From assembly GCA_015234045.1 (NCBI GenBank), contig JADFWU010000050.1:1-22031 (forward strand): a DNA stretch of 22,031 nt, written 5' to 3'. The position numbers and the translations under genes were made by a program. This document shows positions 947 to 19,974 of the stretch, piece by piece (within the stretch, counting starts at the first letter, position 1; each line of letters starts with the position of its first letter). Below the pieces are notes generated by a model. That model was not told where the DNA came from. It saw nothing but the letters and a program-made list of their open reading frames with translations, and did no database searches. The stretch comes from Magnetococcales bacterium. GTDB lineage: Bacteria; Pseudomonadota; Magnetococcia; Magnetococcales; JADFWU01.

Positions 947-1139
947 TCGGCGCTTGTCTTTTATAGTTATTTCGATCCAAAATTTGACAATAAATCACAA
1001 CCTGAGTGGAAGCCCTGGTGATATTTTTGCACCGCTTTTGATATGCAAATCAGATCATCAGAGCAAAAATATCACCAGGGCTGGAACGGCTGACTGTTCA
1101 AATTTTAGACGAAACACCTATGTAAAGGACAAGCGCCGA
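947..1139. repeat. 34-bp palindrome split by a repeat element
   Basis: The left arm (947-963, TCGGCGCTTGTCTTTTA) and right arm (1123-1139) are reverse complements at 16 of 17 positions, the exception being a G-T wobble. Between them lies a 157-bp element. Rejoining the arms gives a 34-bp near-perfect palindrome centred on TATA, between the 3' ends of two convergent genes. That position suggests an ancestral bidirectional transcription terminator, although no strong T tract follows. The arms are not present around the other element copies, so they belong to the target rather than the element. Confidence 0.75.
964..1120 (+). mobile_element. 157-bp MITE-like element, copy A
   Basis: Begins TAGTTATTTCG and ends CGAAACACCTA, imperfect terminal inverted repeats extending about 25 bp inward over AAAATTTGA. 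An internal perfect 19-bp stem (1012-1030 with 1063-1081) encloses a 32-nt loop. It is preceded by TA (962-963) and followed by TG, consistent with a TA target duplication with one mutated base. It shares its full length, 157 bp, and most of its sequence with the copies at 10463-10778. There is no coding capacity: a 63-codon open frame across it is an accident of the repeat. A non-autonomous element moved by an IS630/Tc1-mariner-like enzyme is inferred from the TA target and the structure. Confidence 0.8.
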
Positions 1140-3755: not shown

Positions 3756-3838
3756 TAGTGATTTCGATCCGAAATTAGACAATAAACCACAACCTGGGCT
3801 GGAACGGCTGACTGTTCAAATTTTAGACGAAACCACAA
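3756..3838 (+). mobile_element. Internally deleted MITE copy B (83 bp)
   Basis: It starts TAGTGATTTCGATCC after a TA (3754-3755) and follows the left end of the 157-bp element as far as CACAACCT. It then jumps directly to the right part, GGCTGGAACGGCTGACTG..., ending CGAAACCACAA. The missing middle is exactly the internal stem-loop. The right terminus is degenerate. It lies about 27-48 bp upstream of the possible starts of the YfiR-like gene, so it may sit in the leader or promoter of that operon. Confidence 0.7.
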
Positions 3839-10444: not shown

Positions 10445-10462
10445 AAAACTCCATGTGCATTA

Positions 10463-10778
10463 TCGTCATTGCGATCCAAAACTTGACAATAAATCACAAC
10501 CTGAGTGGAAGCCCTGGTGATGTTTTTGCGCCGCTTTTGATATGCGAAGCAGATCATCAGAGCAAAAGTATAGTCATTTCGATCCAAAATTTGACGATGA
10601 ATCACTACCTGAGTGGAAGCCCTGGTGATGTTTTTGCGCCGCTTTTGATATGCGAAGCAGATCATCAGAGCAAAAATATCACCAGGGCTGGAACGGTTGA
10701 CTGTTCAAATTTTAGGCGAAAGCACTATATCACCAGGGCTGGAACGACTGACAGTTCATTTTTTAGACGAAACACCTA
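10463..10778 (+). mobile_element. 157-bp MITE, outer copy C, interrupted by copy D
   Basis: The left part (10463-10570) and right part (10730-10778) together make exactly 157 bp, the length of copies A and D. Termini are TCGTCATTGCG on the left, where the usual second base A is C, and CGAAACACCTA on the right. TA flanks both sides (10461-10462 and 10779-10780), as expected for a TA target duplication. The break falls at element positions 107-108, a TA inside the right arm of the internal stem. More substitutions than in the inner copy suggest it is the older insertion. It occupies nearly the whole divergent gap between the sulfotransferase and DUF1643 genes, ending 17 bases before the latter's first ATG. 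Confidence 0.85.
10571..10727 (+). mobile_element. 157-bp MITE, inner copy D
   Basis: A complete 157-bp copy from TAGTCATTTCG to CGAAAGCACTA, flanked by TA on both sides (10569-10570 and 10728-10729). Its terminal repeats match at 9 of the first 11 bases and continue through AAAATTTGA. The internal stem GCCCTGGTGATGTTTTTGC pairs with its partner at 18 of 19 positions plus a wobble. It lies in the same orientation as all other copies. Insertion inside copy C is the direct evidence that this family has been mobile. Confidence 0.88.
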
Positions 10779-10795
10779 TACAATCCTGAATTGGA

Positions 10796-19187: not shown

Positions 19188-19446
19188 CTTTCTAAGCAAT
19201 TAATAAAACTGAGAGCCACAGAAAAAACCATAGGAGAATTAACGCCTCTTATAGCCTTCTGACACTAAGAAAGTCTACCAGTTCCACTCCCCTCATGATA
19301 GCGTTTCGAAATAGCTTTGCTGGAACATGCTTACCGAGTCTGACCATTCAGTTGTTTTTGTCAATTTTTCACATACATAAATATAAATTTTTATCATTGC
19401 AATAACCAAGATTAAGATTACATGATTTGGAAAATTGTTTACACAG

Positions 19447-19974
19447 ATGGAAGATAAACCACATAATGCGACTCTCAAGTGCTTTTCAAGTCATCGAAAA
19501 GAGCAACTCAAAGCCTTCACGGCTATTCACCGTGATGGTCTTTCAAAAGTGTCTGAAGCATTCGCCCATACAGTTAGTGGGCTATGGAGATTTCTCATGA
19601 GTGAAGCCATTGTCATCCCAGGGAAAAAAGAGTGGACTCCTGAAGCCATCATGGAAATGGGCAAGCAGTGGATTGATCCTTTGATACTCGAAAAAACCCA
19701 CCAGGAAGGTATACAGGTTGGTGAAAAACGCGGTGAAAGGCGTGGAGAGAAACGCGGTGAAAGGCGTGGAGAGAAACGTGGTGAAAAACGTGGTGAAAAA
19801 CGTGGAGTAAAAAAGGGTGAAGCCATGTTGCTTCTCCGTTTGCTTACGCACCGTTTTGGACCATTACCAGGCTGGACAACCGACAAAATTGATTCTGCCA
19901 ACCGCGTTACAATTGAACGATGGGCCGAGCGGGTTTTAGATGCAAAATCACTTGAACGCGTGTTTGCGGATTAA
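19447..19974 (+). CDS. DUF4351-type protein with GEKR repeat
   Basis: About 175 residues from the ATG at 19447; an in-frame TTG at 19435 adds four. The C-terminal part (LLLRLLTHRFGPLP...KIDSANRVTIERWAERVLDAKSLERVF) matches the DUF4351 domain, normally found at the tail of Rpn/PD-(D/E)XK nuclease-like, transposase-related proteins. The centre is a run of eight Gly-x-Lys/Arg-Arg/Lys tetrapeptides. The N-terminal 80 residues lack a visible PD-(D/E)XK catalytic core, and the protein is much shorter than full Rpn proteins (about 300). This points to a truncated or diverged member. Its stop codon overlaps the CheV-like gene's stop by 4 bases in convergent orientation. Confidence 0.7.
   Translation: MEDKPHNATLKCFSSHRKEQLKAFTAIHRDGLSKVSEAFAHTVSGLWRFLMSEAIVIPGKKEWTPEAIMEMGKQWIDPLILEKTHQEGIQVGEKRGERRGEKRGERRGEKRGEKRGEKRGVKKGEAMLLLRLLTHRFGPLPGWTTDKIDSANRVTIERWAERVLDAKSLERVFAD
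19720..19815 (+). repeat. 12-bp in-frame tandem repeat
   Basis: Eight 12-bp units encode GEKR, GERR, GEKR, GERR, GEKR, GEKR, GEKR, GVKK. The first four also form two near-identical 24-bp units. The strongly charged run is likely helical or disordered. Repeat number is liable to change by slippage without breaking the frame. Confidence 0.9.

Follow-up and report, generated by a model that had tools for sequence, protein, structure and literature searches.

A segment at 10463–10778 of the window (the whole stretch of DNA analysed, 22,031 nucleotides, contig C63 of the assembly) carries a 157-bp repeat that appears to be interrupted by another copy of itself. This raises the question of whether the repeat is a mobile element and, if so, what moves it. 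The locus was analysed by direct reading and repeat finding, and the coordinates assigned to the nested pair in the preliminary description matched the sequence to the base. The features, from left to right, are:

10461..10462, no strand, TA left of the outer element
10463..10570, plus strand, outer 157-bp element, left part of 108 bp, ending in the target TA (10569–10570)
10571..10727, plus strand, complete inner copy of the element (157 bp), interrupting the outer copy at element position 107–108
10728..10729, no strand, duplicated target TA, right of the inner copy
10730..10778, plus strand, outer element, right part of 49 bp
10779..10780, no strand, TA right of the outer element

Removal of the inner copy and one TA from the outer copy left 108 + 49 = 157 bp. 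The restored copy gave one uninterrupted alignment to positions 2–159 of the family model (162 bits, E 9e-50), which bears out the initial reading of one 157-bp copy inside another. The break was correctly placed at element positions 107–108, where a single complete copy elsewhere in the window (copy A) reads TA at 1070–1071, and TA was present, as described, at all four boundaries of the nested copies (10461–10462, 10569–10570, 10728–10729 and 10779–10780). A chance origin of the pair is excluded by the 93% identity between the inner copy and copy A and by the 65 full-length copies delimited in the genome. The nested site documents an earlier insertion that duplicated the 2-bp target TA. No equally clean nested reconstruction was found among the other full-length copies.

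As another source of the nested arrangement, recombination among dispersed copies, or their tandem duplication, was considered. In its favour, five near-identical copies lie in tandem at 108823–109623 of contig C29, with a 161-bp period and TATA between them, and these arrays look like recombinational amplification. Two copies with CA between them were also seen on contig C47, and partial nested or tandem remnants on C29 and C49. The nested site, however, is out of tandem register, the outer copy being cut at an internal TA and resuming once a whole element and exactly one additional TA have intervened. Homologous recombination does not produce this structure and is contradicted by the exact junctions, and this origin is regarded as highly improbable; the insertion of one copy into another is retained.

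The nested pair occupies almost the entire intergenic gap at 10445–10795, leaving ~17 bp free on each side. The neighbouring genes are divergent and encode a TPR-sulfotransferase (minus strand) and a DUF1643 protein (plus strand). As the pair fills the gap between divergent genes, both promoters may sit within the element or be altered by it. When the locus was scanned, a single promoter-like site, at chance level, and no terminator-like site were found.

Other copies of the element are present in the window, as follows:

947..963, plus strand, palindrome left arm TCGGCGCTTGTCTTTTA, split by copy A
964..1120, plus strand, copy A, single and complete (157 bp), flanked by convergent genes for an EamA transporter and a GAF/HD-domain protein
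1123..1139, plus strand, palindrome right arm TAAAGGACAAGCGCCGA, split by copy A
3756..3838, plus strand, 83-bp short form without the central hairpin

When the flanks of copy A were joined and one dinucleotide was removed, a near-perfect palindrome was obtained (−25.5 kcal/mol, z −6.8). This was the strongest fold of the 65 joined flanks, the next junction reaching −3.6. The split palindrome is a second reconstructed empty site. The dinucleotide to the right of copy A is TG rather than TA, presumably owing to a later change. Positioned after the stop codon of the EamA transporter gene, the palindrome was probably the former terminator of that gene. Insertion into terminator-like palindromes as a general rule was rejected, since copy A alone stands out among the joined flanks. 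A 12-bp repeat run was also noted in the window at 19719–19821, where it encodes GEKRGERR-type repeats inside an open frame (19435–19974).

The family was then followed through the whole genome of the host (3.65 Mb in 117 contigs) by BLAST and end-pattern searches, after which 109 merged stretches were examined with a family profile. The profile gave 159 non-overlapping matches on 58 contigs, a figure in which each short form counts as two and many of the matches are truncated where a contig stops; 67 of the matches were at least 150 bp long. These counts are a lower bound, the profile having been applied to stretches with end or BLAST matches. Among the 65 full-length copies that could be delimited, 49 were 157 bp long and the rest mostly 156–159 bp. 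TA preceded the element in 51 of the 65 and followed it in 51 of the 65, as expected from the prediction that many TA-flanked copies would be found. The 14 copies per side without a perfect TA are attributed to later mutation. The element ends were constant across the 65 copies and the sequence outside the TA was unrelated between them; random-length ends, a lack of TA flanks and conserved flanks, each named beforehand as an argument against transposition, were looked for and do not describe the family. Mean pairwise identity of the copies, six flanking bases included, was 85%, and the copies are therefore of mixed age.

The element is either 157 or 83 bp long and contains no transposase gene. 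Its consensus ends, TAGTGATTTCGATCCGAAATTAGACAATG and TAGTGGTTTCGTCTAAAATTTGAACAGTC, form imperfect terminal inverted repeats of ~28 bp, with 18/29 identity between the two ends when ungapped and higher identity when one gap is allowed. The interior contains a 20-pair stem with a loop, and a strand of the element folds end to end (whole-element fold, z −6.0 as RNA and −6.8 as DNA). Given the imperfect terminal inverted repeats and the long hairpin fold, the element is a MITE (miniature inverted-repeat transposable element). It is also short, multi-copy and dispersed, with constant ends, a target-site duplication and termini that resemble the left end of an IS630 element in the same genome. The TA target and its duplication match the IS630/Tc1-mariner group.

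The full-length copies were mostly intergenic, with 9 of 62 insertion points falling in open frames of at least 150 aa compared with 171 of 240 control points. Where such open-frame insertions were inspected by eye, the insertion point lay either ahead of the start of a recognisable gene or close to its end. This distribution, together with the strong hairpin, could suggest that the element serves mainly as a regulatory RNA or terminator hairpin under selection, its mobility belonging to the past. Purifying selection against gene disruption also predicts an intergenic location, however. Moreover, end-proximal helix pairs were broken in many copies with compensatory changes nearly absent, Rfam gave no match, and the nested locus yielded neither a terminator-like site nor a promoter match above chance level. 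A mainly regulatory role is accordingly held to be improbable, and the element is treated below as a MITE. As a separate observation, the 157 bp of the element (as in the inner copy, 10571–10727) plus TA make 159 bp, or exactly 53 codons. One forward frame was open in 24 of 49 copies, so that an insertion read in this frame might contribute a peptide to a protein instead of truncating it.

A transposase of the IS630/Tc1-mariner group elsewhere in the genome had been proposed as the likely mover, and an IS630-type IS sharing the terminal sequence was anticipated. Initially, the DDE_3 profile gave one match in the host genome, a degenerate IS630 remnant on contig C90, whose end (TATAGTCATTTCTAATCATAATTGAAC) lies directly after the stop codon; IS630 ends in genomes of the same order also start with TATAG beside the transposase stop codon. 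This sole match first suggested that the mover had been lost from the genome. That view was overturned when a nearly complete transposase from a genome of the same order was used as a query and revealed the start of a multi-copy IS, at 75% identity on contig C77, where the IS begins with TATAGTCATTCCAATCTAAAATCTAACAGTG. The same left end was found on seven contigs (C77 and six others), the six being cut off 72–77 bp into the IS, and the right end, TATAGTCATTCCAATTCAGAACTGAACATAAT, was found on four contigs, near the contig ends. The IS ends thus lie at 11 contig ends in total, nearly all cut 70–92 bp into the IS, which is read as multiple IS copies at which the short-read assembly was broken. 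The translated start on C77 matched PF01710 (HTH_Tnp_IS630) at 1.1e-24. The DDE_3 domain was represented only by the degenerate remnant on C90 and, for the end of the domain, on C106; the assembly lacks the central part of the multi-copy IS, and neither a complete IS copy nor an intact transposase was found in the 117 contigs.

The ends of this IS were compared with those of the MITE. The IS left end TAGTCATTCCAATCTAAAATCTAACAGTG agreed with the MITE end TAGTCATTTCGATCCAAAATTTGACAATG at 23 of 29 bases for the best MITE ends, and the IS end TAGTCATTCCA was close, though not identical, to the MITE end TAGTNNTTTCG. The anticipated IS630-type IS is therefore present, but its ends are similar to those of the MITE and not the same. 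In the examined stretches, sites starting with TAG and reaching 18/29 identity to the IS left end numbered 78 inside MITE matches, against 2 of 4718 outside. The right end of the IS was less similar to the MITE than the left end. On contig C86 the IS right end adjoins a MITE copy, with one TA common to both.

Based on these data, a MITE account is favoured by the family of copies, the constant ends, the TA flanks, the two reconstructed empty sites and the co-resident IS630 with similar ends. IS630/Tc1-mariner transposases cut at the element ends, insert only at TA and leave the TA duplicated (PMC2170065). By this account the MITE, having no gene of its own, would move as DNA into TA dinucleotides that become duplicated, and the nested pair would represent one insertion into a TA within a copy that was already in place. 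The transposase of the resident IS630-family IS (Tc1/mariner superfamily) would act on the MITE in trans through its ends, binding the terminal repeats because they resemble its own. From the likeness of the ends we infer that the MITE is recognised and mobilised by this transposase or by an earlier, closely related one. Taken as a whole, there is little doubt that the repeat is a TA-inserting 157-bp MITE, one copy of which jumped into another at position 107–108, with a resident IS630-family transposase as the most likely mover. The preliminary description had spoken of proof of a mobile element; the past insertion with TA duplication stands, and the word was slightly strong in that IS630 as the agent is deduced.

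The MITE may instead have been moved by a different transposase, belonging, for instance, to an IS630 relative that is now extinct or was acquired horizontally, or to a TA-duplicating group of the IS5 family. The MITE and IS ends differ at no fewer than six of 29 bases, degenerate IS630 remnants on contigs C90 and C20 carry other ends, and the C90 remnant has TATAGTCATTTC in common with the MITE, all of which would fit such a mover. Against this, the resident multi-copy IS630 has the best-matching left end found, a likeness almost absent elsewhere in the DNA examined, and IS630/Tc1-mariner elements as a rule duplicate TA (PMC2170065). A different mover is considered rather unlikely, and the resident IS630 remains the preferred candidate.

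The 83-bp class comprised at least 14 copies, in which both ends were kept and the central 74 bp were missing. The junctions of these short forms read ACCAG or ACCTG, so there may have been more than one deletion event. A tentative and somewhat doubtful extension of the MITE account is that a lineage-specific family lost its central hairpin more than once, giving the 83-bp forms, with tandem amplification (the five copies at 161 bp) on top. If the repeated hairpin loss were true, hairpin presence, transposition and array growth would be separable in one genome. Some irregular loci were also recorded. Right-end pieces of the element are repeated at a 35 bp spacing on contig C58 (21656–21795), C31 carries at 22911 a short, diverged element whose ends fall between those of the MITE and those of the IS, and a MITE is inserted in an apparent IS left-end remnant on C117 at 45198.

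Outside the host, the element had no match in 60 related genomes (47 of the same order, none of the same genus or family), in plasmid records or in Rfam, nor by exact 25-mer in GTDB contigs and IMG/VR, in collections that may leave out records very close to the host genome. A literature search for MITEs in Magnetococcales found no paper. The family sequence is thus absent from the collections searched, while the class of phenomenon is well known. In this assembly the repeats coincide with many contig ends.

Several known systems resemble the family. The Correia elements of Neisseria (NEMIS/CREE) occur in size classes of ~155 bp and ~107 bp, the long class having an internal ~50 bp, and have TA ends, inverted repeats and strong secondary structure (PMC2229807). 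The likeness is one of architecture only (a long and a short class, TA ends), with no sequence homology claimed; here the classes are 157 and 83 bp and the short form lacks ~74 bp. Correia elements also have promoter, IHF and RNase III properties. For the Nezha MITE of cyanobacteria, mobilisation by a resident ISNpu3-like IS has been proposed from their shared ends (cited in PMC3049150); its sequence and host are different and it is likened to the present element by description only. ISY100 and the IS630/Tc1-mariner family have the TA target duplication in common with the present element and carry a single transposase with helix-turn-helix and DDE domains; for ISY100, 30 bp of each end suffices for transposition in vitro (PMC2170065). 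By contrast, the MITE has no transposase, and its partner IS was only partly assembled. Functionally, the closest parallel is RUP with IS630-Spn1, where the argument was built on evidence of the same type. RUP is a short non-autonomous repeat with ~100 copies per genome, mostly intergenic and with TA ends, and its terminal repeats are similar to those of the resident IS630-Spn1, the proposed mover (PMC2229807, PMC3049150). RUP differs in host and in size (107 bp), and the likeness is by description, with no sequence relation claimed; the present element is further set apart by its strong central hairpin and by the existence of a short class. The family is real and was correctly interpreted; elements of this class are ordinary, and the evidence available within this one genome is unusually complete. 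A plausible co-resident mover and two empty sites that can be reconstructed distinguish it from most bacterial MITEs, and it lends itself to a clean test of whether an IS630 transposase can mobilise such an element in trans.
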